The notes under the pieces are model-generated. The model had not been told where the DNA came from. It did no database searches and was given only the letters and a program-made list of their open reading frames with translations. A DNA stretch of 64,000 bases from Natronorubrum halophilum (GTDB lineage: Archaea; Halobacteriota; Halobacteria; Halobacteriales; Natrialbaceae). Location: NCBI RefSeq assembly GCF_003670115.1, contig NZ_QQTY01000003.1, positions 310,001 to 374,000 on the forward strand, written 5' to 3'. Made by a program: the position numbers and the translations under genes. Below, piece by piece: positions 29,644 through 49,867 of this stretch (positions are counted from its first letter, which is position 1; every line of letters starts with the position of its first letter).

Positions 29644-29745
29644 GTCGAGGTATAGTTTCAAGCCAGCTGCAATAAGCGTTGGTGCGGCGTCGACCGCATC
29701 GCGGCGGCACCACTGACGCGAAAAACGGAGTCGAAACTGATCAGG

Positions 29746-30702: not shown

Positions 30703-30840
30703 GGTATGCTCCACCAATAGATATCGAAGGCATCCTCAAATAACTTTTGTTAGCATTGTTACCTATCGGCACATTAAGAACGTTTGTCAGGAACCCTCGA
30801 GCGACCTCGAGAGCGGATAACCGACGAGGTGACGCGGTGT

Positions 30841-31599: not shown

Positions 31600-31601
31600 C
31601 G

Positions 31602-32519
31602 TCAGTAGTCACCCATATCGATCGGTGTCGCGTAGCTCGTCTGCGGCTGCAGGTCGAGGAACCGTTCGGTTGTCAACTTCTCGAGATACTCGGCCCGATC
31701 GTGGACGCCGTACACCCACTCGTCGAGCCATTCCGTCGTCGATTCGTGCGTCTCGGATCGGCGATCCCACTCGAGGTACGCCTCGTTGTCTCTGTCGTAG
31801 TACCCCTGTGCGTACGACGGATGCGATCCGTACGGCTCCTCAACTACGTAGTCGACCGCGGTTCCTGGAACGAGCGTTCTGTTCGGATCGCTCCGGATGA
31901 CCCGTTTGTCTACGATCTCTTCGACGCTCAACACGACGGTGTCGGCGGCGAACGCTGCCTCCACTATCTCGCCGACGATTCCCCACACCTGCGCGTTCCC
32001 CTCTTCGTCCGCTCGCTGGGCGCGAACGATCGCGACGTCCGGGTTGAGGGGCGGGACCACCGGAATCTCGTCCGGTCCGTCGTCGTATGGGTTCTCGAGG
32101 ATCCTGATCGAGTCAGTGTGGTCCGGATAGTCCGATCCGATGAACGTCCGGAGCGGGAGGAACGGGAGGTCCTGTGCGCCGGCGGCCAGCCGGGAAACGA
32201 GCCCGAAATGAGAGTACTCTTCGATCGCGATCTCGTTCGGGACTCCGTCCTCGACTGCCCGTCGGAACCCGCGGAGGCTGCCAACGCCGGGATTTCCCGC
32301 CCAAGAGAAGGTCACCGTACTCGCACAACCCGCCGCAATCATCTGGTCGTAAACCAGATCCGGCGTCGCCCTGGCGAGGTCGAGGTCCTCGTACCCCTGG
32401 CGAATTATCTCGTGGCCGGCGGCGAACGGGATGAGATGGGTGAACCCACCGAGGTACAGGCTCTGTCCATCGTCGACGGCCTCCGAAATCGCGTACTCCA
32501 TATCTACTACTTCTGTCAT
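31602..32519 (-). CDS. CoA-transferase family I, alpha subunit (GctA/CatI/IpdA type)
   Basis: The 305-aa protein is the larger subunit of the CoA-transferase pair, with LYLGGFTHLIPFAAGHEII near the start and IVRAQRADEEGNAQVWG in the middle. Its length of about 300 fits GctA/CatI/IpdA better than the shorter ScoA type. The transcript probably starts near 32565, since the TATA-like TTTATTATAT lies near 32588-32600, leaving a leader of about 45 nt with a CCATGGTA direct repeat. It probably activates or opens an acid from ring degradation; the substrate is unknown. Confidence 0.85.
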   Translation of the reverse strand: MTEVVDMEYAISEAVDDGQSLYLGGFTHLIPFAAGHEIIRQGYEDLDLARATPDLVYDQMIAAGCASTVTFSWAGNPGVGSLRGFRRAVEDGVPNEIAIEEYSHFGLVSRLAAGAQDLPFLPLRTFIGSDYPDHTDSIRILENPYDDGPDEIPVVPPLNPDVAIVRAQRADEEGNAQVWGIVGEIVEAAFAADTVVLSVEEIVDKRVIRSDPNRTLVPGTAVDYVVEEPYGSHPSYAQGYYDRDNEAYLEWDRRSETHESTTEWLDEWVYGVHDRAEYLEKLTTERFLDLQPQTSYATPIDMGDY

Positions 32520-32848: not shown

Positions 32849-33625
32849 TCAGGGGCCACCGGTATTAACCCAGCCGCCGTCGACCAGGATCCCTTCCGCG
32901 GTCACGTACGACGAGAGATCACTCGCCAGGAAGACGGCGACGTTGCCCAGATCGTCCGGTTTTCCGAGGCGATCCAGCGACGTTTCGGCCGCTCGAGCCC
33001 TCGCGGCTTCGGCGTCGTGGTTTTCGGCGAGTCCGGTCTCGTCGGTGAACCCCGGCTGAATCGCGTTCACCCGCACCTCCGGTCCGAGCAGGTCGGCGAT
33101 CGCGAACGTCATCGATTTCACGCCGCCTTTCGCCGCACAGTAGAGGATGGAGCCGGGTTCGACGAAACCCTGTTCCGCGGCGGTGCTCGCGACGTTGATG
33201 ATGGACCCGTCGCCGTTTTCCAGCATTCGCTCGCCGGCGGCCTGACAGCCGAAGTACGCGCCCTTCAGGTTGACGCTCACGAGCGCCTCGAAGTCGTCGT
33301 CGTCGGTTTCGAAGAACTCGACTGGATGAACGATACCCGCGTTGTTGACCATCACGTCGATTCCGCCGAACTCGTCCGCCGCATCGACCGCGTCGACCAC
33401 GTCCTCGTAGTTCGTCACGTCGCATTCGACGAAGCGACCCTGCGAACCGGTCTCCGCTTCGATCGCCTCCAGCGTCGGTGTCGTCTCCCGTGTTCGTGGC
33501 GTCTCTCGCAGGTCGGCGACGACGATATCTGCGCCGTGGGAGGCCAGTTTCAGTGCGATACCGCGGCCGATGCCGCTCGCACCGCCCGTTACGACAGCTG
33601 TCTTTCCGGTCAGTAGGTCAGACAT
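32849..33625 (-). CDS. Short-chain dehydrogenase/reductase (classical SDR)
   Basis: The 258-aa protein has the classical SDR motifs: TGGASGIG at residues 13-20, NNAG, and the catalytic YCAAK with an upstream serine. The C-terminus ends in VDGGWVNTG as usual. It would oxidise or reduce a hydroxyl or keto group with NAD(P). I start at MSDLLTGKTA (ATG 33623-33625) because a TATA-like TTTAT at 33651-33655 is 28 bp upstream. The frame extending to 33961 has no family support. It is divergent from the alpha/beta hydrolase gene. Confidence 0.9.
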   Translation of the reverse strand: MSDLLTGKTAVVTGGASGIGRGIALKLASHGADIVVADLRETPRTRETTPTLEAIEAETGSQGRFVECDVTNYEDVVDAVDAADEFGGIDVMVNNAGIVHPVEFFETDDDDFEALVSVNLKGAYFGCQAAGERMLENGDGSIINVASTAAEQGFVEPGSILYCAAKGGVKSMTFAIADLLGPEVRVNAIQPGFTDETGLAENHDAEAARARAAETSLDRLGKPDDLGNVAVFLASDLSSYVTAEGILVDGGWVNTGGP

Positions 33626-33784
33626 GTGTTCACAATACCCAGGATCAGAGATAAAGGCTCTGATCAGTCGACCGGGATCGGAGTCGGCTCGAGTCCGTTC
33701 GCGGCGATCGTGAGATTTCGGCCGATAACCGAACTGACGGCTGTGATCGCAAACATGAATACGCGTCGGGAGAGATGTGTTACC

Positions 33785-34594
33785 ATGGTTTCCCACACCG
33801 TCTATAGCGGCGATTTGGCGCTTCGCGTCGAGGAGGTCGGAAGCGGCCGGCCGGTGTTGCTCGTTCACGGCTACTCCCAGAGTCGGCTGTGCTGGCGAAA
33901 GCAATTCGAGTCGCCACTCACGGAGGATCTCCGACTGATCGCGATGGACAACCGCGGCCACGGCGACTCGGACAATCCCCGCGACGCGTACGAGGAGTCC
34001 GAACTGTGGGCCGAGGATATTCGATCGGTCATAACGGCGCTCGATCTGGAAGACTGCATTCTCGTCGGCTGGTCGTACGGCGGATTAGTGGTTCTCGACT
34101 ACGTCGAGACTTTCGGAACGGACGGGATTGCTGGCATCAACCTCGTTGGCGCGGTCTCATCGATCGGAACCGAGATGGCGACCGAGCGTCTCGGACCGGA
34201 GTACATCGATCTCGTGTCGGGATTCGTTTCAACCGATGTCGAAGAGAGCGTCGAAACGATGCGGCAGTTCGTGGAGCTGTGCGTCTACAACGACCTCTCG
34301 CCGGAAGACCGAGCGTACATGTTGGGATACAACGTCGTCGTCCCGCCGCACGTACGCGACAGCCTCCGCGACCGAACGGTGAGCCACGAGACCGAACTCG
34401 CGGATCTGGACGTCCCCGTCCTCCTCACGCACGGCGACGAAGACGACGTCGTGCTCCCCGCGGCCTCGCGACAGTACGCCGATCTCATCGACGACGCGGC
34501 GTATTCCGCTTATCCGGAAACGGGCCACTCACCGTTCTGGGAGCGACCTGAGCGGTTCAACCGCGAACTCCGGGAGTTCGCCCTCGAGGTGTAG
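33785..34594 (+). CDS. Alpha/beta hydrolase
   Basis: The 269-aa protein is a classic alpha/beta hydrolase: HGYSQSRLCW near the oxyanion region, the nucleophile elbow GWSYGG, THGDEDDVV with the acidic residue, and ETGHSPFWE with the catalytic His. Such enzymes open lactones, esters or C-C bonds, including meta-cleavage products. The start at 33785 overlaps a GTTACCATGGT word also present upstream of the CoA-transferase operon. It is followed after 45 bp by a reductase gene and probably shares a transcript with it. Confidence 0.88.
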   Translation: MVSHTVYSGDLALRVEEVGSGRPVLLVHGYSQSRLCWRKQFESPLTEDLRLIAMDNRGHGDSDNPRDAYEESELWAEDIRSVITALDLEDCILVGWSYGGLVVLDYVETFGTDGIAGINLVGAVSSIGTEMATERLGPEYIDLVSGFVSTDVEESVETMRQFVELCVYNDLSPEDRAYMLGYNVVVPPHVRDSLRDRTVSHETELADLDVPVLLTHGDEDDVVLPAASRQYADLIDDAAYSAYPETGHSPFWERPERFNRELREFALEV

Positions 34595-34639
34595 CGCCGC
34601 GACCGAATCTTTATGCTCTGTACGCTTGGAGGGGTAGGT

Positions 34640-35266
34640 ATGCCGGAACTACGAATCACCAGGCTCGAGGACGTCGGTGACCAGACCGCCGCTATCGAAG
34701 TCGAAGCGCCGACCGATTTCGAGGCGTACCCCGGACAGTTCGTACTGGTTCGAGCAACCATCAACGGCGAGGAAGAGACCGGATATTACACGATTTCCTC
34801 CCCCGACGTCGAGGAGCGATTCGAAATGACGGTTGCGGTCGATCCCGACGGGACGCTCGGTCCGTGGCTCGTCGAACGCGCGCTCGGAGAGACGATCACC
34901 GTCGAGGGACCGTTCGGCGACATCCAGTACGTCGACGACGGCGTCGCTCTCGTGTTCGCGGGCGGGCCCGGTATCGGTCCGGCGGTCGGTATCGCCGAGC
35001 GCGCCCGGCGGCTGGATCACGATGTGACGATCGTTTACGGTGGCGACCAACCGCCACACGGGGATCGCCTCGATACCCTGAAAGAACGCGGTGCAACGAT
35101 CGTTCTCTCGGACGATCTCGAGGAGGCAGTCGACTCGATCGATCCCTCGGCGTTCGAGATATACGTATTTGGCTTCCAACAGTTCGTCGAAGAGGCGAGA
35201 GACGCGCTCTCTCGGGCCGGAATCGACCTCGATACCGTCGAGATAGAGAGTTTCGGGCCCGAGTAG
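34640..35266 (+). CDS. Cysteine-free FNR-type NAD(P)H/flavin oxidoreductase
   Basis: The 208-aa protein has a flavin-binding barrel with YYTISSPD and an NAD(P) domain with GGPGIGPAVGIAERA, as in ferredoxin-NADP reductase superfamily members. It has no cysteine, so it cannot carry the 2Fe-2S cluster of dihydroorotate dehydrogenase electron-transfer subunits or phthalate reductases. The usual Arg before the YT/S motif is replaced by Gly. It may be a stand-alone flavin reductase that feeds FMNH2 to the LLM oxidoreductase encoded at 43242, which is inference. GGAGGGG just before the start acts as a ribosome-binding site. Confidence 0.8.
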   Translation: MPELRITRLEDVGDQTAAIEVEAPTDFEAYPGQFVLVRATINGEEETGYYTISSPDVEERFEMTVAVDPDGTLGPWLVERALGETITVEGPFGDIQYVDDGVALVFAGGPGIGPAVGIAERARRLDHDVTIVYGGDQPPHGDRLDTLKERGATIVLSDDLEEAVDSIDPSAFEIYVFGFQQFVEEARDALSRAGIDLDTVEIESFGPE

Positions 35267-35388: not shown

Positions 35389-36252
35389 ATGGCGACAAAT
35401 ACACTCGTACGAATAGGTGCGTTACTCGTAGACGGGATCAGTATCGGGCTCTTATACGCGATGCTCGGGTTGGGAATTACGCTCGTGTTTGGACTCGGCG
35501 GGGTTTTGAATCTGGCGCTGGGCGCGTTCACAGTTATCGCGATCCTGCTCACGTTCGAACTGACCGGCAGTGTCCCCGTCGTCGTTGCGGCAGTCATCGC
35601 GATTGCCGTGACGGCGGCGTTCGGACTGTTTCTCGATCGAACCCTCCTCCAACTGGTCTACCGATCCGAGGGAGACGAGCGCCTTCTGCTAGGCATTTTC
35701 ACGACCCTCGGGCTGTCGATCGCGCTTCAGGGCGCGCTCTCGCTGCGATATTCCGGCGAGTTCTCCGTCCCGATTCACATCGATACGGTAGAACTATCCG
35801 GTGCGTTCATCAGGGGAAGTTCGATACTCATAATCGTCGCTTCACTGATAATACTCTCGGGGATGTACCTCTTTTTCAGCCGCACGTACACCGGTCTGGC
35901 GACGCGGACGATAATGCAGGACGAAACCGGTGCGCTCTTCTGTGGCATCGACACCAAACGAATGCGGACGTTCGTTTTCGTGTTGAGCGTTGCCATCGCT
36001 GCGGTCGCCGGCGTGTTGTACGGGACATCGTTCGAGACCAGCGTCGCCGGCGCGTTCGACCTGACTATCACCGCCGTTATCGTCTCGATCGTCGGTGGCG
36101 TCACCAGCATTCTCGGCGTGGTCGTCGCCGGTATCGGTCTGGGGATACTGACGACGTTCATCAGCGCGTATCTCGGCGCGTATATCTCGACGATAGCGCT
36201 GTTCGGCATCGCGATCGGCGCGTTACTCGTTAAACCGGAGGGGATACAATGA
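35389..36252 (+). CDS. livH: Branched-chain amino acid-type ABC permease LivH
   Basis: The 287-aa protein is a LivH-type membrane subunit with about eight hydrophobic segments, including GLLYAMLGLGITLVFGLGGV near residue 24 and the C-terminal conserved region GIGLGILTTFISAYLGAYIS. It forms the translocation path with LivM, whose ATG overlaps its stop by 4 bp. LivHMGFK-type transporters import branched amino acids but also aromatic and other carboxylates. Within this island an aromatic or cyclic acid is the likelier cargo, by context. Confidence 0.9.
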   Translation: MATNTLVRIGALLVDGISIGLLYAMLGLGITLVFGLGGVLNLALGAFTVIAILLTFELTGSVPVVVAAVIAIAVTAAFGLFLDRTLLQLVYRSEGDERLLLGIFTTLGLSIALQGALSLRYSGEFSVPIHIDTVELSGAFIRGSSILIIVASLIILSGMYLFFSRTYTGLATRTIMQDETGALFCGIDTKRMRTFVFVLSVAIAAVAGVLYGTSFETSVAGAFDLTITAVIVSIVGGVTSILGVVVAGIGLGILTTFISAYLGAYISTIALFGIAIGALLVKPEGIQ

Positions 36253-37244
36253 ACCGGAATTACTACCACCTCGCGATCGTCGCGCTCGTACTGGCGCTCA
36301 TTCCACCGCTATTCTTCGCTCCCGGTATGAGTTACATCGCGCGTATCTTCATTCTGATGGCGCTGTACGCGATCCTGACGACGGCGCTCAACATCGTCTT
36401 CGGCCACACCGATCAGTTGCTCCTGTTTACGGGAGCAGTCGCTGCGATCGGCGCCTACACGACGGCCCTCGGAGCACAGTGGCTCGGCGTTTCCCCCTGG
36501 ATCACCCTCCTACTGGGTGCCTCTTTCGCCGGGATCGTCGGTATCGTCGTGACCTACGTCGCGGCCATCCGCAATCTCACGGTCATCGTCATCTCGATTC
36601 TCACGCTCGCGCTGCAGTTTTCCCTCATCGAGTTGATTAACAGTCTGCGAGATATCACGGGCGGCGTCACGGGTCTCGTGTTCAACGACCTCCGAATTCG
36701 GCCGCTCGAGAACCTCCCCTGGTTCACCGAGGACATCGTCCTTTTCTACACTCTCGGTGCGATCCTCCTCGCGCTACTGGCGCTCTACCAGTATCTAATG
36801 AACTCGAAGTACGGGCTCGCGTTCGAGATGATTCGCCAGGACGAGACGGCGGCGAAATCCATCGGGCTCAACGTCGTCAAGTACAAGGTGATCGCCGGGT
36901 TCATCGCGACGTTCGCTATCGGACTGGCCGGTCCGTTCTTCGGCCAGCTCTCGGGGTTCATCGGCCCCGGCACGTTCACGTTCAACAACATCGACGTGAT
37001 GATTCTCATCATGCTCATCGTCGGTGGGCTCCGGACGATGTACGGACCGCTCATCGGTGCGGCGGTGATCATCTACCTGAACGAGCAACTCAGGAACTTC
37101 GCCGAGTACCGTTCGATTCTCTTCGGGCTGTTACTCATGGCGCTCTTCCTCTACTTCCGACAGGGACTCGTCCCCTTCGCCGAGCGGTACCTCGACAAGT
37201 ACGGCGTCAGGCAGCGCGCCACCGATCTGCTGGTCCGTTCGTAG
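36249..37244 (+). CDS. livM: Branched-chain amino acid-type ABC permease LivM
   Basis: The 331-aa protein is the second permease of the Liv-type importer. It has many membrane segments and the conserved FEMIRQDETAAKSIGLNVVK coupling loop that meets the ATPases. The start overlaps the end of livH (ATGA), so the two are translationally coupled. They converge with the binding-protein gene at 37532; the ATPase genes lie beyond that on the opposite strand. The complete set is thus split into two facing operons. Confidence 0.9.
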   Translation: MNRNYYHLAIVALVLALIPPLFFAPGMSYIARIFILMALYAILTTALNIVFGHTDQLLLFTGAVAAIGAYTTALGAQWLGVSPWITLLLGASFAGIVGIVVTYVAAIRNLTVIVISILTLALQFSLIELINSLRDITGGVTGLVFNDLRIRPLENLPWFTEDIVLFYTLGAILLALLALYQYLMNSKYGLAFEMIRQDETAAKSIGLNVVKYKVIAGFIATFAIGLAGPFFGQLSGFIGPGTFTFNNIDVMILIMLIVGGLRTMYGPLIGAAVIIYLNEQLRNFAEYRSILFGLLLMALFLYFRQGLVPFAERYLDKYGVRQRATDLLVRS

Positions 37245-37531
37245 CCGGCTGCTTCCGTTCGTTTCGGCTCTCACGCCGGCGAAACGGTGGTGGAGACCGC
37301 TCGCTCGAGGAGATCAGCGCCGATCCGGACGCGGGGCGGTGCGACGCGAGTTCCGATATCGCCCGTCGATATTTCACCGAGAACGATCGGACAGCGTGTC
37401 ACACTGGCGTCGTAGCAGTTACAGGAACAAGCGTCGAACAGTGGGTGAGCGTACGAGAAGACGTCAGCAGGCGTCCCGATATGCCGCCTCGAGATCGGAT
37501 TCGCCGGTACGAAATTGGCATGAAACAGCGT

Positions 37532-38758
37532 TTATATGTCAAGTTCGCCGGGCTCGTACGCCGGGAGCGGATCCGTCCGGAACGTTTCTTCCGGGGCGAA
37601 GCCGACGTCGGGCCAGTGGTCCGGCGACTCGCCGATGGTAAAGGAGTTGTAGATCTGAACCGAATTCTCGACCTCTCCCCACTCCGTGTACTCGATCGGC
37701 GAACCGAACAGGAGGTCGAAAGAGCCCGTTCGCGTCGCCTCGGCGATGTCGACCGGATCGGCCGATCCCGCCTCCGCTATCGAGTCGGCGATCAACCGAA
37801 CCGAGACGTACCCGTTGACCTGCGCGTGGTCGAAGACGTCTCCGGTTTCCTCCAGGTACGTCGACGCCACGTCCGCGTAGTCGTCGCTGTACATATCCGT
37901 CGCGTTGAACGAGGCGAACGACTCTTCGATGCCGTCTCCGAGCGCGTCGTAGTCCGCCTCCATCGGCGTGATGGCACCGAGGTACAGATCCGGGTCGAGA
38001 CCGACTTCGTACACCTGGTTGTACATGCTGCTGACACCCGCCGGGTGACCGCTGCCGAGTATCACCTCGGTGTCGTCGGGGAATCCGCGCAGCAAGGGGA
38101 CGAAGTCCGTTTCGGGAATCGGTGCGGTCTCGGTAGTGAGGGTGATGTCGTCGGGGAAGTACTCGTCTATCGCAGCGCCGTACTCGTCCCCCCAGACGCC
38201 GTCCTCGAAGATGACGCCGATGTTGTTGTACCCTCCCTCTTCGATAATCTGTGCCTGCGCTCTCCCGACCGTTGGGGTCGCGGGAAGGCTCGTCCGGAAG
38301 ACGAAGTCGTTGTCTCGCGGGTTCGCTGCGACGGCACCTGCTGCGTGGAGGTACAGCGGGACCTCGTTTTGTAGTGCGACGTCGCCGCCCCGAATCGCCG
38401 CCTCGGACGCGCCCGGTCCGATCCCCGCGACTGCGTTGTTCCGGTCGATCGCCTCCGTGAAGGCCGTCACCGTCTCCTGGGCCGTGCCTTCAGTGTCGAC
38501 GACGTCGATCTTGATGTCCTGATCGCGGACGCCGCCGTCGGCGTTTATCTGTTCGGCCGCGAATTCGGCACCGTCTCGGTGCCGCGAACCGTACACCGAG
38601 AACACGCCCGACAGCGGTTCGAGGGCGACGATCGTGATCGTATCACCGCTCTCCTCGTCGCTGATGAAACACCCGGCGAGGATCGACGTACTGACGCCGG
38701 CGCCAGCTGCTTTAATGTAGTTACGTCTGTTCATGCGCGTCTTAGGCGTTCTAGTCAT
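37532..38758 (-). CDS. livK: Liv-type ABC transporter substrate-binding lipoprotein
   Basis: The 408-aa protein begins with a twin-arginine signal (NRRNYIKAAGAGVSTSILAGC) ending in a lipobox cysteine. It is therefore exported folded and lipid-anchored on the cell face. The mature part is a periplasmic-binding-protein type 1 fold of the LivK/amide-binding class (ALEPLSGVFSVYG, VFRTSLPATPTVG). It hands a carboxylate substrate to LivHM. The start at 38758 fits a TATA-like TTTTAATAC about 30 bp upstream with GGAG just before the ATG. Confidence 0.9.
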   Translation of the reverse strand: MTRTPKTRMNRRNYIKAAGAGVSTSILAGCFISDEESGDTITIVALEPLSGVFSVYGSRHRDGAEFAAEQINADGGVRDQDIKIDVVDTEGTAQETVTAFTEAIDRNNAVAGIGPGASEAAIRGGDVALQNEVPLYLHAAGAVAANPRDNDFVFRTSLPATPTVGRAQAQIIEEGGYNNIGVIFEDGVWGDEYGAAIDEYFPDDITLTTETAPIPETDFVPLLRGFPDDTEVILGSGHPAGVSSMYNQVYEVGLDPDLYLGAITPMEADYDALGDGIEESFASFNATDMYSDDYADVASTYLEETGDVFDHAQVNGYVSVRLIADSIAEAGSADPVDIAEATRTGSFDLLFGSPIEYTEWGEVENSVQIYNSFTIGESPDHWPDVGFAPEETFRTDPLPAYEPGELDI

Positions 38759-38890
38759 ACTGCCATCTCCTCAAGTGGCCCAATACGTATTAAAATTTGT
38801 GGATTGATAACAGTTGACGTGGTTGGGTCGACGGTGAACTACCGCTCCGTCGGTACTTCGGGGTAGTATCTCGCGGTTCGAACGAGGCGT

Positions 38891-39589
38891 TCAGCTACTC
38901 AGGTAGGTCTCTTTCACGTGAGCGCTTTCGAGCATCTCGGCCCCGGTCCCTTCGGTCGCGATTCGACCGTTCTCGAGCAGGTAGACGCGATCCGAAAGCT
39001 CGAGGGCTCGATCGACGTGTTGTTCGATGAGGATGACCGTGATCTCTTCGCTGATCTCCGCTATCTTCTCGAAGACCCGATCCGCCAACTGCGGCGCGAG
39101 CGCGCCGGACGGTTCGTCAAGCGCTAAGACGTTCGGGTGTGCCATCAGCCCGCGTCCGATCGCGAGCATCTGCTGTTCGCCGCCGCTGAGCGTCCCCGCC
39201 TTCTGGTCGCGGCGCTCCTCGAGAACGGGGAACATGTCGACGACCTCCTCGTAGGTCTCCTCGAAGTCGTCACGGTGCGTGTACGCGCCCATTCGGAGGT
39301 TCTCGTACACCGTCAGATCGTGGAACAGGTTTCTTTTTTCCGACACGTGGACGAACCCCCGCCGGACGATTGCGCTCGGAGGGAGATCGTGCGTCTCCTC
39401 GCCGAACATTTCGATACTACCGTTCGTCGGCCTGAGCACCCCCGAGAGCGTCTTGAGGAGGGTCGTCTTCCCCGCTCCGTTCGGACCGACGATCGCGACG
39501 ATTGAGTCGCTCTTTCTGATCTCGAGCGAGAGTTCCCACAGCACCTGGAGATCGCCGTAGTGAACGTCGATCTCTTCTACCGAGATCAT
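38891..39589 (-). CDS. livF: Liv-type ABC ATP-binding protein LivF
   Basis: The 232-aa ATPase has Walker A GPNGAGKTT, signature LSGGEQQM and Walker B VLALDEPSGAL. The start MISVEEIDVHYG (ATG 39587-39589) comes one base after the livG stop, so translation is coupled. With LivG it powers the LivHM permeases. The upstream in-frame start within livG (39604) is unlikely because the conserved family beginning is IxVxxIxVxYG. Confidence 0.92.
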   Translation of the reverse strand: MISVEEIDVHYGDLQVLWELSLEIRKSDSIVAIVGPNGAGKTTLLKTLSGVLRPTNGSIEMFGEETHDLPPSAIVRRGFVHVSEKRNLFHDLTVYENLRMGAYTHRDDFEETYEEVVDMFPVLEERRDQKAGTLSGGEQQMLAIGRGLMAHPNVLALDEPSGALAPQLADRVFEKIAEISEEITVILIEQHVDRALELSDRVYLLENGRIATEGTGAEMLESAHVKETYLSS

Positions 39590-39590
39590 A

Positions 39591-40316
39591 TTACGCCTCC
39601 GCACCTCCGAGGTACGCCTCGGCGACGTGGCTATCCTGTTGAATCTGCGTCGGCGTTCCGTCGGCGATTTTCTGCCCCTGATTGAGGACGATGATTCGAT
39701 CGGTCGCGTTCATGATCGCGTCCATCACGTGTTCGATCCAGAACACGGAGATGCCGAATTCGTCCCGGGTCTGTCGGAGATTTCGGGATAGTTCGTCGAG
39801 TTCGGTCGGTGTCAATCCACTTCCGATCTCGTCGACCAGAATGAGCTCCGGCTCCGACGCGAGCGCTCGCGCTAATTCGAGTTGTTTTCGATGAGCGATC
39901 GTGAGGCTGCTCGCATCCTCGTCGGCCTTCTCGTCGAGACCGATGAACTCGAGATACCGCCGGACGTTCTCTCGTTCTTCCGCCATCGTATCGGGGTCCT
40001 CCTTTCCGAACACAGCGCCGGCGAGGACGTTGTCGAGCACCGTGGATTCGTTGAACGTTCGCGCCGTCTGGAAGGTTCGGGTGATACCGTGCTGTGCGAT
40101 TTTGTGGGGTCCCTTCCCGATCAGCTCTTCCCCGCGGAACGCGATCGAGCCCGTCTCCGGCGCATACACTCCGGCGATCGTGTTGAAAAGCGTCGTCTTT
40201 CCCGCCCCGTTGGGGCCGATCAGGCCGACGATCTCGTTGCGGTCGATGCTGAGACTGACGTCGTCGACTGCGGTCAACCCGCCGAAGCGTTTGGTAACAC
40301 CGCTAACCGTTAGCAT
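39591..40316 (-). CDS. livG: Liv-type ABC ATP-binding protein LivG
   Basis: The 241-aa ATPase has Walker A GPNGAGKTT and the LivG-type ending IADGTPTQIQQDSHVAEAYL. The signature is degenerate: the usual LSxGxQ region reads SLTIAHRKQLELARAL, as is common for LivG proteins. A TATA-like CTTTATG near 40343-40350 fits a leaderless transcript beginning at this ATG and covering livF and possibly the binding-protein gene. Confidence 0.92.
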   Translation of the reverse strand: MLTVSGVTKRFGGLTAVDDVSLSIDRNEIVGLIGPNGAGKTTLFNTIAGVYAPETGSIAFRGEELIGKGPHKIAQHGITRTFQTARTFNESTVLDNVLAGAVFGKEDPDTMAEERENVRRYLEFIGLDEKADEDASSLTIAHRKQLELARALASEPELILVDEIGSGLTPTELDELSRNLRQTRDEFGISVFWIEHVMDAIMNATDRIIVLNQGQKIADGTPTQIQQDSHVAEAYLGGAEA

Positions 40317-40490: not shown

Positions 40491-41738
40491 ATGGTAGATA
40501 CTGTGACACACGACACAGTCCTCTCACGGGAGACACGAACGGTCGTATCGCCAAGCAACGTCGTCTTCGGTGTCGGTGCGGTCGACCAGATCGGAGACTA
40601 CGCGTCGCTTCACGGCGAACGGGTCCTGTTGATCGCTACTGAACAGATATTCGATATCCACGGTGAACGGGTTCTCTCCATCCTCGAGGACGCGGGCATC
40701 GAGACGATGGTCTATACAGACGTGCGTCCGGATCCGACCGTCGAGAACATCGAGGAGGCGCACGCGCTCTGGGCCGATCGCGACTGCGATGTGATACTCA
40801 CGTTCGGCGGCGGTTCCTCCATCGACACCGGAAAGGGCGTCGGGATTCTCGCCGCGAACGACGGCGAGATCCGAGACTTCGGCGTCGACAAAGCGGGGTA
40901 CGAAGGGGTACCGAACCCGACGCCGCCCCTCATCGCCGTCAACACGACCGCCGGGACCGGGAGCGAGGCGACCCGGTCGGTCGTCGTCAGCGACGAATCC
41001 ACGTCAACGAAGTTCCTCATCGTCTCGCAGAACGTTGTCCCGGACGTCGCGATCGAGGATCCGGAACTCTCCGTCTCGCTTCCTCGCAGTCACACTGCCT
41101 TTACGGGGATCGACGCTCTCACACACGCCATCGAAGCGTACGTCTCGGTACACTCGTACAGCATCCCTGACGGCTTCGCCGAAGAAGCCATGAAGCGTAT
41201 CGCTCGGTCGCTCCCGGTTGCGTGGGCTAACGGGGATGACCTCGACGCTCGTGCGGATATGCTCGTGGGCCAACTCCAGGCCGGGCAGGCGTTTACGAAC
41301 TCCTCAGTCGCGCTCGTTCACGGGATGGCGCGTCCGCTCGGCGCACAGTTGCACATCCCCCACGGTCTCGTGAACGCTCTCATCCTTCCGTACGTCGTAG
41401 AGTTCTCCGCAATGGCGGCCCCCGAAAAGTACGCCACCGTCGCCCGCATTCTTGGCGCTGCGGACGACGACGATCGAACTCGAGCGGCGGCCGACGAGGC
41501 CGCTGACGCGGTCCTTCAACTCTGTGAGGACCTCTCGTTAACGGGATATCTCGACGATTTCGGCGAGATACCCACTCGAGAGGAGTACCTCGATGTCGTC
41601 GACGAAATGACCCAGGACGCTATCGACTCGGGATCGCCGGACAACAATCCACGGAAACCGACTACCGAGGAGATTCGCGACCTCTACCTCACCCTGTACG
41701 ACGATGCGCTCGCACCCGATAGTCCGCGCCGTTCCTGA
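40491..41738 (+). CDS. Iron-containing alcohol dehydrogenase, copy 1
   Basis: The 415-aa protein belongs to the group III iron-type alcohol dehydrogenases. The nucleotide-binding GGGSSIDTGKGVG and the downstream region TGIDALTHAIEAYVS with further histidines (LVHGMARPLGAQLHIPHG) supply the metal ligands. It would oxidise an alcohol to an aldehyde or reduce one with NAD(P). It is divergent from the livGF operon. A distant member of the same superfamily lies at 46629. Confidence 0.9.
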   Translation: MVDTVTHDTVLSRETRTVVSPSNVVFGVGAVDQIGDYASLHGERVLLIATEQIFDIHGERVLSILEDAGIETMVYTDVRPDPTVENIEEAHALWADRDCDVILTFGGGSSIDTGKGVGILAANDGEIRDFGVDKAGYEGVPNPTPPLIAVNTTAGTGSEATRSVVVSDESTSTKFLIVSQNVVPDVAIEDPELSVSLPRSHTAFTGIDALTHAIEAYVSVHSYSIPDGFAEEAMKRIARSLPVAWANGDDLDARADMLVGQLQAGQAFTNSSVALVHGMARPLGAQLHIPHGLVNALILPYVVEFSAMAAPEKYATVARILGAADDDDRTRAAADEAADAVLQLCEDLSLTGYLDDFGEIPTREEYLDVVDEMTQDAIDSGSPDNNPRKPTTEEIRDLYLTLYDDALAPDSPRRS

Positions 41739-42669: not shown

Positions 42670-43098
42670 TTAGAGCCAGGGGTATTGCTCCGTGTCCGTT
42701 CCGGCGTAATCGGGATCGAGATAGATAAAGAGGCGCTGGATCTTCCCGTTCCGGACTTCGAATACGTCACACCAGCGGCCACCGCCGGGTGTGCCGTCTG
42801 GTTTCCACTCTTTCCCCTCCGCGGTTTCGCCGGTACTCGTCCCCTCGACGACGATCATATCTCCGTCGATGACGTAATTGAACGTCTCGTAGTCGTGAGA
42901 CATCGACGTGACGAGACTGCCGACATCACCGAACATCTCCCCGACTTCTTCGCGTCCGGTCGCGATCCCCCACTTCGGGTAGAAGACGCGGACATCGTCC
43001 GCAAAGAGCTCGAGGAAGTCGCCTCCGCGATCTAGCCGTCTGAAGTACTCGAGGACGATGCTCTTCCGTTCGACATCTGTTTCTGGAGTTTCTCCCAT
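42670..43098 (-). CDS. SnoaL-like (NTF2-fold) protein
   Basis: The 142-aa protein has the cone-shaped NTF2/SnoaL pattern: EYFRRLDRGGDFLELFADDV at the start, a TGREEVGEMF loop, and the closing strand region GGGRWCDVFEVRNGKIQRLF. SnoaL-like proteins act as small isomerases, cyclases or hydratases, or bind small hydrophobic ligands. It is divergent from the LLM oxidoreductase gene 143 bp away, so the two may be co-regulated. The exact role is unknown. Confidence 0.82.
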   Translation of the reverse strand: MGETPETDVERKSIVLEYFRRLDRGGDFLELFADDVRVFYPKWGIATGREEVGEMFGDVGSLVTSMSHDYETFNYVIDGDMIVVEGTSTGETAEGKEWKPDGTPGGGRWCDVFEVRNGKIQRLFIYLDPDYAGTDTEQYPWL

Positions 43099-43241: not shown

Positions 43242-44405
43242 ATGGAAACCTTTGCGTTCCACCTGATGCCGTATCAGGATATCGACGATATTACCGAGAA
43301 GAAGTCCGCCTGGCCCTGGGTCGAGCACGAGTACGATCCGGAGAAGGGGGCTCAGTATTACAAGGACTATCTCAGCCAACTCGAGTACGCCGCCGAGCTA
43401 GGATTCGACGGCATCGGTGTCAACGAGCACCACTACAACGCCTACGGGCTGCAGCCGAGTCCGAACATTACGGCGTCGAACCTGGCGGCCCGTACCGACG
43501 ACACGACGATCGCGTTCTTCGGGAATCTGCCGGCGCTCCGCAAGAATCCGATCCGGCTCGCGGAGGAACTCGCGATGCTGGACAACATCACCGAGGGTCG
43601 GATCATCAGCGGCTTCCCCCGTGGCATCCCGAGCGAGTACCTCGCGTACGGAATCGACATCCGAGAGTCGCGCAGTCGCTTCGAGGAAGCGTGGGATCTG
43701 ATCTTGAAGTCGTGGACCGCCGACGAACCGTTCGACTGGGACGGTGAGCACTTCCAGTACGAGAACGTCTACATCTGGCCTCGCCCCTACCAGGATCCGC
43801 ACCCGCCGCTCTGGATGCCGGCCGAGAGCGAAGAGTCGCTTCGATTCACCGCCGAGAATCAAGTTCCGACGGGGCTGGTCTTCCAGCCGGTCGACACTAT
43901 CAGCGAGAAGTTTTCCGAGTACCGCCAGTACGCGGAGGAGGATTACGGCTGGAGCCCCAGCGACGAGGATTTCAGCGTGATGCGAGCCATCTACGTCGCC
44001 GAGACGATGGAAAAGGCCCGCGAAGAAGCGGAACCTCACCTCCGGAAGTTCTATCAGACGCTCACCGCCGGCGTTCACGTCGGCGTTTCCGCGGGCATGA
44101 TGGGCGATCAACCCTACGACCCCGAGAAGTGGGACGAGTACATCGAAGAGCTCCACCCGCACGGCGAATTCGCGTACAATTACGACTTCGACGAGTTTCA
44201 GGAGTACGGCGAGACGATCGTCGGTACCCCCGAGTACGTCGCCGAACAACTCGAGGAGCAGTACGAGGCCGTCGGTGGATTCGGCCGCATTGTCGGTCAG
44301 TTCCACTTCGGCGACCTCCCCGACTGGAAGGTCCGCAAGAACCTTCGACTGTACGCCGACGAGGTCAAGCCCGAAGTCGACAAGATCGGCGACGTCAATC
44401 CCTGA
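43242..44405 (+). CDS. LLM-class flavin-dependent oxidoreductase (luciferase-like)
   Basis: The 387-aa protein is a luciferase-like monooxygenase family member. It starts METFAFHLMPYQDID and shows VNEHHYNAYGLQPSPN, LAEELAMLDNITEGRIISGF and PLWMPAESEESLRFTAEN typical of the TIM-barrel FMN or F420 enzymes. Such enzymes use reduced flavin and O2 to oxidise carbon, sulfur or nitrogen compounds. The TATA-like AGTATTAAG at 43209-43217 fits the ATG at 43242. It leads a run of plus-strand genes that includes a riboflavin kinase and ribB, so FMN is the likely cofactor. Confidence 0.88.
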   Translation: METFAFHLMPYQDIDDITEKKSAWPWVEHEYDPEKGAQYYKDYLSQLEYAAELGFDGIGVNEHHYNAYGLQPSPNITASNLAARTDDTTIAFFGNLPALRKNPIRLAEELAMLDNITEGRIISGFPRGIPSEYLAYGIDIRESRSRFEEAWDLILKSWTADEPFDWDGEHFQYENVYIWPRPYQDPHPPLWMPAESEESLRFTAENQVPTGLVFQPVDTISEKFSEYRQYAEEDYGWSPSDEDFSVMRAIYVAETMEKAREEAEPHLRKFYQTLTAGVHVGVSAGMMGDQPYDPEKWDEYIEELHPHGEFAYNYDFDEFQEYGETIVGTPEYVAEQLEEQYEAVGGFGRIVGQFHFGDLPDWKVRKNLRLYADEVKPEVDKIGDVNP

Positions 44406-44423
44406 AGCGAGTTGACTATCGCT

Positions 44424-44816
44424 ATGTCGCCATCGCTTCACCAGTCGCTGTTGATGGTCTCGGACCTCGATGCATCAGTGGCGTTCTACCGGGATATCGT
44501 CGGGTTGGAACCCGACGAGATCGCCGACGGGAACGCCGAGTTCGACACCGGCCGCTGTACGCTCGTCCTCGAGGAGGACTTCGATCCGGAGGTGCTCGAC
44601 GCCTTCGGACTGGACGAACCTGGTGACGAGCGCGGACGAGGCGTCATCGTCGCGATCGACGTCGACGATCCGGAAGCGGTCGACACCGTGTGCGAGCGGG
44701 CCGCCGAAGCGGTCGAGACGGTCCGGATGGAACCGACTGACGTCGAGTGGGGGCGGCGGATGGCTCTCCTGTCCGATCCCGACGACTACACGGTCGAGAT
44801 TTCGGCCCCGCGGTAG
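44424..44816 (+). CDS. Single-domain VOC (glyoxalase/dioxygenase superfamily) protein
   Basis: The 130-aa product is one VOC domain: LHQSLLMVSDLDASVAFYRD at the start and LLSDPDDYTVEIS at the end. VOC proteins include glyoxalases, epimerases and extradiol dioxygenases; half-size ones act as dimers. It begins 18 bp after the LLM gene and is very likely co-transcribed. I use the ATG at 44424 rather than the TTG at 44412. Its substrate is probably the product or a side product of the LLM reaction. Confidence 0.83.
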   Translation: MSPSLHQSLLMVSDLDASVAFYRDIVGLEPDEIADGNAEFDTGRCTLVLEEDFDPEVLDAFGLDEPGDERGRGVIVAIDVDDPEAVDTVCERAAEAVETVRMEPTDVEWGRRMALLSDPDDYTVEISAPR

Positions 44817-44842
44817 ACAAGTCGACCTGAATATATATTAAA

Positions 44843-45060
44843 ATGCGAACACTCGTTACCGCGGTTCGCCCGCGAGAGCCGCACCCGCAGCCGCAGGCGT
44901 CCATCGAAGAAACCGAAGACGCGCCGGCGTTCAACGAACGCCCAGTCGAGGAGGAACGAGCGATCACGGACGGCGTGTTTTCCGTCGAGGGATCGAAACC
45001 CGCCAGTGACGTACTGACGAACGCTACGGACGTCGCCGTCGTTACGGTCGACTACCGATG
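44843..45060 (+). pseudogene. Internally deleted HSL-type esterase remnant
   Basis: The first ~50 residues (EPHPQPQASIEETEDAPAFN, ERPVEEERAITDGVF) match the N-terminus of the esterase at 22059. After ASDV the sequence jumps to LTNATDVAVVTVDYR, skipping about 50 residues including HGGG, and homology ends near 45060. The nucleophile region is absent. It was once part of this operon. Confidence 0.75.
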
Positions 45061-45120
45061 TCCACCGGAGCGGACCGCAACGCTGCACTCGAGCGAGACT
45101 CGAGGCCGGAGACGCAACAC

Positions 45121-45537
45121 ATGACAGTTACCGTAGAGGGTACCGTCGTTAGCGGTTTCGGTACCGGAAACGAATTCGTCTCTTTGGAGGGGTACGCGCG
45201 GCAGTTCCGGGCCGTACTAGGGTACGAGCCGTACCCCGGAACGCTCAACCTCGATCTTCCCCACCCGATCGATACTCGACTCGAGCAACTCGACCCAGTA
45301 CGTATCAACGGCTGGCGGGATGGCGACCGCTCGTTCGGAGCCGTCTACTGCTATCCCGCGTCGGCCGCCGACGCCGACGAGTCCGTCCGGTTGCACGCTA
45401 TCGTTCCAAAACGCACCGACCACGATACGTCGACGCTCGAACTCATCTCACCCGTCAATCTGCGGAACCGGTTCGATCTCTCCGACGATGCTTCGTTCGC
45501 GGTTCGCGTCGAGTCCGAGTCGTCGGATACTGGATAA
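45121..45537 (+). CDS. ribK: Stand-alone CTP-type riboflavin kinase
   Basis: The 138-aa protein is an archaeal (DUF120-type) riboflavin kinase, which makes FMN from riboflavin using CTP. It shows the family order GTVVSGFGTGNEFVSLEGYA, LGYEPYPGTLNLDLP and the C-terminal LRNRFDLSDDASFAVRV. In most haloarchaea the riboflavin kinase, as I recall, is fused to an N-terminal helix-turn-helix (RbkR). This one has no such domain, so it is probably an extra, purely catalytic copy. I start it at MTVTVEGTVV (ATG 45121); the frame open from 45058 is part of the esterase remnant region. Confidence 0.87.
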   Translation: MTVTVEGTVVSGFGTGNEFVSLEGYARQFRAVLGYEPYPGTLNLDLPHPIDTRLEQLDPVRINGWRDGDRSFGAVYCYPASAADADESVRLHAIVPKRTDHDTSTLELISPVNLRNRFDLSDDASFAVRVESESSDTG

Positions 45538-45831
45538 GCGGATTGGCGTAGCGCTCCGAACCTGAGTTCGGAAACAGCGTTCTCTGCGAGACGACACGGC
45601 GCAGCCGTGATCAGTTCGGACCGATTCGTTCTCGTCGGGAATCGCCCCGTCGGTTTCGAGTAACGCGTTGGAAAGCTGCTCGTCGGTTTCGACAACTGCT
45701 TCTTCGAGGACGATCCGATCCGATTCACCCACTGCATTCCCCCAGGCAAAGAGAGAATCCGTCAGCCAGATCCTGGTAACGCACTGGGTCTGTGGGTTTT
45801 CTCCCGCGATACTCTCAGTATCTGTCAACAA
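45538..45831 (-). other. Uncertain minus-strand coding trace
   Basis: A minus-strand frame from ATG 45829-45831 encodes an acidic stretch (VGESDRIVLEEAVVETDEQL and SNALLETDGAIPDENESV) of haloarchaeal composition. It then turns into low-quality sequence and runs under the riboflavin kinase gene. I do not recognise the family. It may be the stub of a lost gene rather than a working one. Confidence 0.25.
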
Positions 45832-45833
45832 CG

Positions 45834-45874
45834 TTTATTTAGTATGACATCCAATCGCATGATGTTTCATGCGA
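45834..45874 (+). promoter_or_regulatory. Promoter and perfect palindrome upstream of ribB
   Basis: TTTATTTAG at 45834-45842 is a TATA-like box. The palindrome TCGCATGA, 4 nt, TCATGCGA (45855-45874) spans the position where transcription would start, and ribB follows after a leader of about 55 nt. A repressor bound here would block initiation. The HTH-riboflavin kinase regulator RbkR, known from other archaea, is a candidate, but I cannot confirm the motif. Confidence 0.45.
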
Positions 45875-45920
45875 ATCAACGAATTACGGATGAAGGTGGT
45901 CTCCTGTGTGGAGTGAGAGC

Positions 45921-46616
45921 ATGCTGCCGGATAACTACAGTTACCGCCAGAAAGACCCCGAAAGCGGAGTAGAGAACGCCGTCGAGGCGTTCAGAAACGG
46001 AGATCCGGTAATGATTCACGACGCCGCCGAGCGCGAAAACGAAGTCGATCTCGTTTACCCGGCCTATTCCATTACCCCGTCCGATGTCGCTCGCCTCCGG
46101 AACGATGCGGGCGGACTCATCTGCGTCGCGCTGTCGTACGACGTCGCCGAGGCGTTCGGATTGTCGTTCGTCGACGAGATGGTCGACCATCCGGCGACGA
46201 CGGACACCGATATCGAGTACGACGATCGGTCTTCGTTCTCCCTGACGGTCAACCACCGGGATACCTTCACCGGGGTCGTAGACAACGACAGGGCGCTCAC
46301 CATCTCCGCACTCGGCGATGCGGCGCGGGCTCCGGCCAGGACGGATTTCGCGGCCGAGTTCGACATTCCGGGACACGTTCACCTGTTGAAGGCCGCGCCG
46401 AACCTCCTCGCGGATAGACAGGGACACACGGAGCTCGGTATCGCGCTCGCTGAGCGGGCCGATATTCCGCCGGCCGCCGTCGTCTGTGAAATGCTAGACG
46501 ACCGGACGGGCGGTGCGCTCTCCCGATCTAATGCCGCATCGTACGCTGCCGAGAACGATTTCGTCTTCATCGACGAGTCGACGATCATCGACGAGCTTAC
46601 TTACAGGTCGAAGTGA
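45921..46616 (+). CDS. ribB: 3,4-dihydroxy-2-butanone 4-phosphate synthase
   Basis: The 231-aa protein converts ribulose 5-phosphate to 3,4-dihydroxy-2-butanone 4-phosphate and formate, an early riboflavin precursor step. Family motifs are complete: DAAERENEVDLVYPA, GGLICVALSYDVAEAFG, DRSSFSLTVNHRDTFTGV, IPGHVHLLKA, RQGHTELGIALA. The start at 45921 follows a GGAGTGAG ribosome-binding site. A palindrome lies at the presumed transcription start. It sits between the riboflavin kinase and an iron-type dehydrogenase, all on the same strand. Confidence 0.92.
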   Translation: MLPDNYSYRQKDPESGVENAVEAFRNGDPVMIHDAAERENEVDLVYPAYSITPSDVARLRNDAGGLICVALSYDVAEAFGLSFVDEMVDHPATTDTDIEYDDRSSFSLTVNHRDTFTGVVDNDRALTISALGDAARAPARTDFAAEFDIPGHVHLLKAAPNLLADRQGHTELGIALAERADIPPAAVVCEMLDDRTGGALSRSNAASYAAENDFVFIDESTIIDELTYRSK

Positions 46617-46628
46617 TCCGTGATCTAA

Positions 46629-47852
46629 ATGAACGGGAACTTGTTTACCTTCGAGTACGAGCCGAGTACGATTCACCACGGCCCGGGTATCGTTGGGAAT
46701 CTCGAGTCGGTACTCGATCGTCACGACCTCTCACGAGCCCTCATCGTCACTGACGGGAACCTGTCCGAGGTCCCCGTCGTGATGGATCCAGTCGAGAACG
46801 GAGCCAGCGACCGACTCGTCGGCACCTTCGACGGAGTGACGCCAGAGAAGTACCTGAAGACCGCCTACGAGGGCGCTCGCCGCGTCCGCGACGAGGAGAT
46901 CGACGCGCTCATCGCGCTCGGCGGCGGGAGTAGTCTCGATATCGCCAAGCAAATCAGCGTCCTCGTCGGACACGACCGTCCCCTGGACGACGTCGTAGAC
47001 GAGATCCTGGAACGGGAAGCGATGCTCCTCCCCGAGGAGGGCGTTCAGCTGATCGACATCTTTGCGGTTCCGACGACCCTCCCCGGCGCGGATCTCTCGC
47101 AGGTTGCGGGCATCAAACTCAGCCTCGATCCGGCCGGACAGGCCAAATCCGAGATTCCGAGCGCCGGCGTCTCCGACAGCCGGCTGATGCCGACGGTGGT
47201 CTTCCACGATCTGGAACTGTTCGCCACGACGCCGGAACGCGTCCTCGCCCGATCGGCGATGAACGGGTTTGACAAGGGGATCGAAATGCTGTATACCAAA
47301 CACCACAACCCGATCACCGACGGGACGGCAGTTCGGGGCGTCAGGCTGCTGTACGAGGGACTTCCAGCGATCACCGCGGAGTCGACGAGCGAGGACGATC
47401 TCGCTCGAATCGTACGGGGGATCGCCGCGGCACAGTACGGGCTGTCGACCCCGAACGCGTACCGAGCCTCCGTGATTCATTCGTTCGGCCACGCTATCGC
47501 GCGGAACTACGAGGTCCAACAGGGAGTCGCACACGCGATCGCCGCACCGCACGTACTCCGCTACCTCTTCGAACAGGTCGACGGTCGTCGGGATCTGCTG
47601 GCCGAAGCGTTCCGGGTTCAAGACGAGACGGCCACCGCCGAGGAAACAGCCGACGCGGTCGTCGACGCCGTCGCGGCGACTCGAGACGCCCTCGACCTCC
47701 CGTCACAACTGCAGACGATCGAGGGGACGGAGCGGAGTCACTTCCCCGACCTCGCGCGGGCGGTCATCGAGGATCCGTTTATGGACGCCGGGCCGCGCAG
47801 ACTCGAGGCGACGCAGTCCGATATCGAGTCGGTGTTCGAACGAATGTGGTGA
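46629..47852 (+). CDS. Iron-containing alcohol dehydrogenase-family protein, copy 2
   Basis: The 407-aa protein has GGGSSLDIAKQIS for nucleotide binding and metal-site regions NGFDKGIEMLYTKHH, HSFGHAIARNYEVQQG and VAHAIAAPHVLRY. It is only distantly like the copy at 40491 and belongs to another branch of the iron-dehydrogenase/dehydroquinate-synthase-like superfamily. It begins 12 bp after ribB and must be co-transcribed with it. It may reduce or oxidise the aldehyde or alcohol arising from the LLM-catalysed step. Confidence 0.88.
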   Translation: MNGNLFTFEYEPSTIHHGPGIVGNLESVLDRHDLSRALIVTDGNLSEVPVVMDPVENGASDRLVGTFDGVTPEKYLKTAYEGARRVRDEEIDALIALGGGSSLDIAKQISVLVGHDRPLDDVVDEILEREAMLLPEEGVQLIDIFAVPTTLPGADLSQVAGIKLSLDPAGQAKSEIPSAGVSDSRLMPTVVFHDLELFATTPERVLARSAMNGFDKGIEMLYTKHHNPITDGTAVRGVRLLYEGLPAITAESTSEDDLARIVRGIAAAQYGLSTPNAYRASVIHSFGHAIARNYEVQQGVAHAIAAPHVLRYLFEQVDGRRDLLAEAFRVQDETATAEETADAVVDAVAATRDALDLPSQLQTIEGTERSHFPDLARAVIEDPFMDAGPRRLEATQSDIESVFERMW

Positions 47853-48741: not shown

Positions 48742-49746
48742 TCACGCCTCGAACTCGAAAACCTCGCGCGGATTATCCAGGACGACCCTTCGAATCGCCT
48801 CTTCGTCGATTCCGTACCGATACAGCTCGAAGATAGCCCGCTTCAGGGCGAACGGATCCGTTCTGAGGACGTTCGCACAGTCGGTATCGATCATGATCCG
48901 TTCCGGCCCGTACTCGTCGATCGCGTCGGCGACGTCGGCGGCAGTGACGCCGATCAACCACGAGTGTCCGATCGTATAGCTCAGATAACAGTCGGTGTTC
49001 TCCATCAGGTACTCCGTATTGTTTCCGTCGGCGTGCGAGGCGACGACTCGTCTGTCGTCTAACCCTGCATCTCGCATCGCCTCGACGTCTATCTTCACCG
49101 CGTCGAGAGCAGGGTTGTCGCCATCTAGTACGGGTTCGCAGCCGAGATTCGTATTCTTCTCGTACCCCGGGATACCCGTCCCGGGGCGATACGATCGCCC
49201 CGAGTCCGTAGACCGGTTCGGCGTGTGGAGGATCACCGGTAGCTCGTGTTCCGATGCGAGTTCCATCTGCGCCTGGACGATCGCCCGCTGGTGGTCGACG
49301 TCCCAGCTACTGACGTGCTGGGAGGGGGTGACGCCGGTTTCACCGATCGCGACTACCTCCTCGAGTTCGCAGTAGTCGCCCATCGCGGCCAACAGTTCGT
49401 CGGGGTTCTCGATACGGACGCCCGTGTGGATACCCAACCCGAGTTTGGCCTCGAAGAAGTGGTTTCGCTCGATCGCCGCCCGGCGATTGACCGCGTCGTC
49501 CCAGAGATACCTGATATCGTCGGCTTTGACGGGCTTGTACGGCGTCCAGTGATAGCCCGATGCGACCATGATCATGGACCGGCATCCGGAGAGGGCGTAC
49601 CGCTCTCGGTCTTCCCACGAAAGCGTATGTGCGTGGTTGTGAACGTCTATCCACGGAAGATTGAGAAGCTCCCTCGGAATGTCTACGTCCTGTTCGTCGA
49701 GGTGCGTTGCGTCTGTCGGGCGTTTCGTCGGATGGGATGCTGTCAT
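48742..49746 (-). CDS. TatD-family metal-dependent hydrolase, copy 2
   Basis: The 334-aa protein is a paralog of the hydrolase at 24768-25763. It has the same ligand set (WIDVHNHAH, GETG, LHTP, ASHADGNN, DTDCANVL) and the CRSM segment near residue 60. The middle part, after LHTP, differs most, suggesting a different substrate. I start at MTASHPTKRP (ATG 49744-49746); a TATA-like GATTTAACC near 49800 would give a leader of about 28 nt. Confidence 0.83.
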   Translation of the reverse strand: MTASHPTKRPTDATHLDEQDVDIPRELLNLPWIDVHNHAHTLSWEDRERYALSGCRSMIMVASGYHWTPYKPVKADDIRYLWDDAVNRRAAIERNHFFEAKLGLGIHTGVRIENPDELLAAMGDYCELEEVVAIGETGVTPSQHVSSWDVDHQRAIVQAQMELASEHELPVILHTPNRSTDSGRSYRPGTGIPGYEKNTNLGCEPVLDGDNPALDAVKIDVEAMRDAGLDDRRVVASHADGNNTEYLMENTDCYLSYTIGHSWLIGVTAADVADAIDEYGPERIMIDTDCANVLRTDPFALKRAIFELYRYGIDEEAIRRVVLDNPREVFEFEA

Positions 49747-49867
49747 ACTGAACCTCGTTGCTGAGCGAGACGCGTGTCTTTCTGGTAGCGAGTCGCGCTT
49801 CCCGGTTAAATCCACTGTCACTTAGCGTTTCACTCGGACTCGTACGGTGGTGTTCAACCGGGAGCAG

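Follow-up and report, generated by a model that had tools for sequence, protein, structure and literature searches.

In luminous bacteria, genes of riboflavin synthesis accompany the lux genes, either ribB alone (luxH in Vibrio harveyi/campbellii) or the set ribEBHA (Photobacterium), and their position beside a luciferase-type flavin mononucleotide (FMN) monooxygenase has been read as cofactor supply (PMC6409340). We have found a comparable layout in the archaeon Natronorubrum halophilum. Within a stretch of 64,000 nt (G000:C3:310001-374000, hereafter the window), genes for a stand-alone riboflavin kinase (RFK) and for RibB are contiguous with a gene of the luciferase family encoding a luciferase-like monooxygenase (LLM), much as ribB alone accompanies the lux genes in V. 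campbellii. The locus differs from the lux-rib systems in that it belongs to an archaeal catabolic island, has a riboflavin kinase in addition to ribB, possesses several promoters and has one LLM in place of LuxAB; no lux reductase or synthetase was found among the island proteins scanned. It is an archaeal variant of the lux-rib principle, with the loss of a helix-turn-helix (HTH) domain and of an operator as the new regulatory angle. A literature search, with subscription papers mostly outside its range, found no description of an archaeal cluster of rib genes with a luciferase-type gene. The preliminary description, made from the sequence alone, likewise knew of no such archaeal layout; the principle itself is familiar from the luminous bacteria.

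The HTH-fused form of riboflavin kinase is RbkR (HVO_0326, with HVO_0327 as its ribB partner) (PMC8305020). The island pair is homologous to this housekeeping rbkR-ribB pair, the same two enzyme families standing side by side, but it lacks the HTH domain and the operator motif, its two genes lie apart and its phylogeny is foreign. A minimal RFK domain without HTH is also found in Methanocaldococcus jannaschii MJ0056, which is a housekeeping enzyme there, whereas in N. halophilum such a protein is additional to an HTH-fused copy in the genome. Homologous LLMs (32-40% identity) of Neorhizobium and Bradyrhizobium adjoin alpha/beta hydrolases and NAD(P)H-dependent oxidoreductases in clusters that, like the island, include a hydrolase, a reductase and dehydrogenases, but no RFK or ribB is annotated within 10-14 kb there.

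The additional RFK and ribB genes

The LLM, RFK and ribB genes lie together with genes for a VOC protein and an iron-type alcohol dehydrogenase (Fe-ADH B) on the plus strand at 43242-47852, and all five open reading frames (ORFs), as named in the preliminary description, gave strong Pfam matches (Table 1). The ATG at 43242 is most likely the start of the LLM gene. For RFK, the ATG at 45121 appears to be a better start than that of the longest ORF, since the alignment with the N-terminus of MJ0056 (3.3e-19) runs from the first residues. Only 3-31 residues precede the RFK domain in the island proteins, compared with about 100 in the housekeeping copies, which bears out the stand-alone form without HTH. 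All 22 of the 22 columns invariant across the island RFKs, the housekeeping RFKs and MJ0056 are retained in the window RFK, and the product of ribB, which matches M. jannaschii RibB at 2.9e-52, retains the ERExExD and GHTE motifs.

The module idea had been staked on there being further copies in the genome. The genome yielded two RFK and two RibB matches and no more, the second RFK and ribB lying side by side at C1:234886-235979, where the RFK has about 100 extra N-terminal residues and bears the HTH domain. Because of this separate pair, the island genes are extra copies beside the housekeeping HTH-RFK/ribB pair.

Co-inheritance with the monooxygenase

The survey of co-occurrence between the LLM and an extra pair covered 293 genomes of the order. 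Six of them contain the LLM subfamily (E<1e-60), and a contig-end LLM fragment with 61% identity over 151 residues made G135 a seventh. All seven carry an extra RFK/RibB pair, whereas among the 286 others no more than 8 had an additional RFK-like match of any kind, several of these cases being long divergent RFK-like ORFs (one a shown RFK-HAD fusion) or incomplete genomes (Fisher test 1.9e-10, a value that ignores the relatedness of the genomes). A class-wide search with a stricter cut-off and a different genome set added no further island members.

The orthologous islands, whose extent was followed by tblastn of the window proteins against the sister loci, belong to haloarchaea of several families (Table 1). 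The order of the five genes, which had been proposed as worth seeking elsewhere, recurs in Natrinema zhouii, two Haladaptatus genomes, G274 and G256 (without Fe-ADH B), and in decayed form in Halegenticoccus; the five-gene arrangement is therefore, as judged by this conservation, not one of chance. The HTH-less island RFKs form one clade (support 100/99) and the RibBs another (99/96), and both cut across host families; the pair thus travels with the island.

Other pairs have joined LLM genes as well. The RFKs of G135 and G104 form another, HTH-bearing clade (99/94): G135 has the same island but an HTH-bearing pair of this other lineage, and G104 has an LLM orthologue with the HTH-bearing pair 7 kb away. 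A 114-kb replicon (plasmid) of G211 carries a different LLM, a short-chain dehydrogenase (SDR), an HTH-RFK, a RibB and a 54%-identical reductase; its RFK stands separately as a third lineage and its RibB beside the island clade at 98/72. The trees hold several long branches, which makes the deep placements unsure. Since the pairs accompanying the G135, G104 and G211 LLMs are not orthologous to those of the island clade, the riboflavin pair seems to have been associated with LLM genes repeatedly, by separate lineages. A density of 84 LLM genes in about 33 Mb gives any one locus a chance of about 0.05 of lying within 10 kb of an LLM; two of the three pairs that do not belong to the island clade (G211 and G104; not G240) are LLM-near (P = 0.007). 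In the genomes covered by this LLM count, no housekeeping pair has an LLM within 10 kb.

Selection and loss of the operator motif

The island genes are under purifying selection. The dN/dS ratios (nonsynonymous to synonymous substitution rates) of RFK (0.18-0.23) and RibB (0.07-0.24) are similar to those of the neighbouring VOC and Fe-ADH B genes, and RFK and ribB appear to have been kept functional.

A 32-bp repeat motif (TTCTGTTACGCATCCCACATCCGGTACGCTTA), built in this analysis from the housekeeping HTH-RFK loci, is found upstream of all 39 housekeeping HTH-RFK genes, scoring 23-43 bits, and the whole genome of N. halophilum holds one strong site, before the housekeeping pair. The motif is absent from the window, where the best score was 4.4 bits (shuffled sequences reach 11.5 at most), and from every LLM-linked RFK/ribB pair.

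Proposed function and alternative explanations

The reading that we favour, with a probability of about 0.6, is FMN provisioning by a mobile island whose RFK and ribB genes stand outside the normal flavin regulation. The LLM, as a two-component monooxygenase, would oxidise a substrate, probably aromatic or cyclic, that is taken up by the cell. RibB, judging from its family, would raise the level of 3,4-dihydroxy-2-butanone 4-phosphate for riboflavin and RFK, by the same token, would turn riboflavin into FMN; a reductase encoded at 34613-35266 would give FMNH2, which the LLM would use, and the remaining island genes would hydrolyse, ring-cleave and CoA-activate the product. Lacking HTH and operator, RFK and ribB would increase FMN production during use of the island. 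If FMN supply is tied to the oxygenase, a pair that lacks the operator, is co-inherited and is under selection is what would be expected, and this part of the original proposal stands. The closest solved structures to the LLM by sequence are RslO1 (7bip) and bacterial luciferases, which are FMN-type enzymes, and its cofactor may likewise be FMN. The NEHH motif of the LLM is invariant.

Several observations weigh against this reading. The 32-bp motif is an RbkR operator by prediction. The F420 enzyme Mer is among the structural matches of the LLM model, which is weak (pLDDT, the per-residue confidence score, 64) and serves for orientation only. The ribB gene has its own conserved promoter, ACGTTTATT-like and unlike that of the LLM, and no convincing operator shared across the island genes, which would tie ribB to the LLM, was found. 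RFK and ribB are not adjacent in Haladaptatus and G274, where a HIT gene of the other strand lies between them. Finally, the extra pair of G240 adjoins etfAB without an LLM, so that extra pairs are not LLM-specific.

The idea of a single co-induced unit, in particular, finds no support here. A conserved promoter (TACTATTAAGTAGTA) lies about 30 nt upstream of the LLM gene in four orthologous loci, and conserved promoters also precede Fe-ADH A and, in other islands, Fe-ADH B, which, with the separate promoter of ribB, speaks against a single operon in the window, a reading that we rejected. The VOC-RFK gap of about 240 bp contains a gene relic and the RFK-ribB gap is about 370 bp. The gaps from LLM through VOC to RFK measure only about 15-35 bp in N. 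zhouii, and RFK and LLM are therefore probably on a common transcript there, which would not include ribB. A short leader ORF begins about 27 nt past the TATA-like element of ribB and has counterparts of 14-17 aa in four of five orthologues (L035, L036, L037 and L042), which suggests a leaderless transcript with translational coupling.

An alternative, unlikely in our view, is that the island picked the pair up accidentally, as a duplicate of the adjacent genes rbkR and ribB, and that nothing links it functionally to the LLM. The same two genes adjoin in the housekeeping locus, so that one event could bring both, and the pair of Halegenticoccus is decaying together with its island. A mere passenger is hard to reconcile with a low dN/dS maintained through transfers between families, with the non-orthologous pairs at the LLM clusters of G135, G104 and G211, and with catalytic residues kept while operator and HTH were lost.

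Less probable again is that the pair serves other island flavoproteins, or overall flavin demand, and not the LLM in particular. The etfAB neighbourhood of the G240 pair would agree with this, as would the acyl-CoA dehydrogenase that is also present in the G211 cluster and the flavoprotein nature of the island reductase. Against it, none of the sampled genomes that have this type of LLM lacks the pair, and the product of RFK is FMN, the expected LLM cofactor, no synthase for flavin adenine dinucleotide (FAD) having been recognised among the island genes scanned.

Degradation of riboflavin as by the rca cluster of Microbacterium, where the luciferase-fold, FMN-dependent monooxygenase RcaE cleaves riboflavin (PMC12746152), is very improbable in spite of the shared fold and of the ring-cleaving and amidohydrolase-like genes of the island, and was rejected because the LLM is not RcaE-like by sequence (no significant RcaE match among solved structures at 1e-5) or by structure ranking (27th, with 16-18% identity, from the weak model), and because ribB is biosynthetic and would be pointless for degradation.

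If FMN provisioning is the true explanation, an archaeal catabolic module could carry its cofactor supply with it on transfer, beyond the service of the housekeeping genes, and the archaeal flavin regulon could be bypassed by loss of a DNA-binding domain and an operator. The locus would then allow a straightforward genetic check on whether LLM oxygenases are FMN-limited in vivo, and would suggest, for practical use of such oxygenases, that RFK and ribB be co-expressed with them. More tentatively, and at somewhat less than even odds, haloarchaeal catabolic islands may repeatedly and independently have recruited an RFK/ribB pair freed from RbkR feedback, oxygenases moving with their cofactor supply as a convergent counterpart of lux-rib and a work-around of the riboflavin regulon.

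The wider catabolic island

These five genes represent part of a catabolic island that extends over about 20.8-49.8 kb of the window, and the picture of a self-contained module finds no support: the likely reductase, the hydrolases and the ring-cleavage genes lie outside 43242-47852. The conserved set comprises an MDR-type alcohol dehydrogenase, a two-VOC dioxygenase, CoA-transferase beta and alpha subunits, an SDR, an alpha/beta hydrolase, a FAD_binding_6 reductase, a liv ABC transporter, Fe-ADH A, an aldehyde dehydrogenase (ALDH), SnoaL, LLM, VOC, Abhydrolase_3, RFK, HIT (absent in the window), RibB, Fe-ADH B and a TatD-like hydrolase.

Table 1 Features of the island in the window and orthologous islands in other haloarchaea
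Feature	Position or locus	Strand	Basis and remarks
MDR-type alcohol dehydrogenase	28582..29661	-	72.6% identical to Haladaptatus gene; conserved island member
MhqO/PcpA-type ring-cleaving dioxygenase, two VOC domains	29746..30717	-	3oaj MhqO 7.1e-62; 4huz dichlorohydroquinone dioxygenase 6.5e-43
CoA-transferase, glutaconate type	30841..32519 (beta 30841-31599, alpha 31602-32519)	-	PF01144; beta vs 1poi_B 1.2e-54
SDR dehydrogenase	32852..33625	-	85.7% identical to Haladaptatus SDR
Alpha/beta hydrolase	33626..34594	+	Pfam; also adjacent to LLM in Neorhizobium, Bradyrhizobium
FAD_binding_6 reductase-like protein, candidate LLM flavin reductase	34613..35266	+	PF00970; conserved in islands
liv-type ABC transporter	35389..40316	both	Pfam; conserved in Haladaptatus, G274, G135
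liv permeases	35389-36252, 36249-37244	+	Pfam
liv binding protein	37532-38758	-	Pfam
liv ATPases	38891-39604, 39591-40316	-	Pfam
Fe-ADH A	40491..41738	+	Pfam; canonical metal-ligand motifs; conserved in islands
SnoaL-like protein	42670..43098	-	PF12680; divergent from LLM; kept in N. zhouii, G274
LLM-class flavin monooxygenase	43242..44405	+	PF00296 Bac_luciferase 1.5e-47
Small VOC/glyoxalase-fold protein	44424..44816	+	PF00903 7.6e-13; ~18 bp after LLM
Relic of Abhydrolase_3 gene	44843..45031	+	50% identity to residues 2-57 of 313
Stand-alone CTP-type RFK	45121..45537 (longest ORF from 45058)	+	PF01982 CTP-dep_RFKase 2.5e-33
Short leader ORF	45870..45917	+	After ribB promoter; stop inside ribB start region
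ribB	45906..46616	+	Pfam DHBP_synthase 6.8e-51; NCBIfam TIGR00506 above cut-off
Fe-ADH-family protein B	46629..47852	+	PF00465 1.5e-24
TatD/amidohydrolase-like hydrolase	48742..49821	-	Pfam; orthologues 63-67% identical adjoin Fe-ADH B; conserved island member
Island, Natrinema zhouii	L042		Five-gene order without insertions
Island, Haladaptatus halobius plasmid	L035/L061		
Island, Haladaptatus DYF46	L036		
Island, G274	L037		
Island, G256	L038		Without Fe-ADH B
Island, Halegenticoccus tardaugens	L044		Decaying
Island, G135	L092 + L115		Two contigs

The Bac_luciferase domain covers most of the LLM (residues 40-350). The candidate flavin reductase, 8 kb from the LLM, is weakly similar to the flavin reductase 1qfj of E. 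coli (3.7e-4), and a PF01613 flavin reductase is present in the LLM cluster of G104. The Abhydrolase_3 gene is whole at the place of the relic in Haladaptatus, G256 and Halegenticoccus but deleted in the window, which has an intact homologue at 22041-22997.

The ring-cleaving dioxygenase is closest to MhqO and PcpA-type 2,6-dichlorohydroquinone dioxygenase, and its iron-ligand His, His and Glu positions appear conserved in an alignment judged by eye. A second copy at 20825-21796 shares about 95% DNA identity with it over 1.0 kb, which points to a recent duplication or gene conversion within the island. Because of this dioxygenase, and because the G274 island has an XylR_N-V4R regulator, we infer that the island substrate is probably aromatic or cyclic. 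The MhqO/PcpA-type enzyme recalls the hydroquinone-type pathway of aromatic ring cleavage, which would further use a semialdehyde dehydrogenase, a maleylacetate reductase and a 3-oxoadipate CoA-transferase. ALDH is absent from the window (it is present in four sister islands), the CoA-transferase is of the glutaconate type, and Fe-ADH B is nearer to lactaldehyde than to maleylacetate reductase, so that its sequence does not support the latter assignment. The earlier label of an iron-type dehydrogenase fits Fe-ADH B as regards its family; in all close orthologues examined, however, three of the four metal ligands are replaced (D to N, H to K, H to Q) and one His is retained, and the protein is probably a metal-independent or non-dehydrogenase member.

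Additional observations

The opposite-strand gene near RFK/RibB pairs (L035:9466-10014, L036:9080-9640, L037:8903-9460, L093:4418-4981) encodes a HIT-domain protein, which also occurs beside the otherwise different pair of G135 and whose substrate could be FAD or some other nucleotide. The extra HTH-RFK/ribB pair of G240 (C2; L040, 4594-9607) lies by etfAB and an AMP-forming ligase-like gene and partly retains the operator-like motif in weakened form (21.8 bits); it perhaps provides flavin for another flavoprotein system.

In G197 (L095:9587-10522) a divergent RFK domain is fused to a HAD phosphatase and adjoins a UbiX-like flavoprotein. Similar RFK-like ORFs of 310-380 aa are present in G045, G001, G018 and G032, the fusion being verified in G197 only. 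Among the gaps listed for riboflavin synthesis in haloarchaea is the riboflavin-pathway phosphatase (EC 3.1.3.104) (PMC8305020), for which the RFK-HAD fusion may be worth a look.

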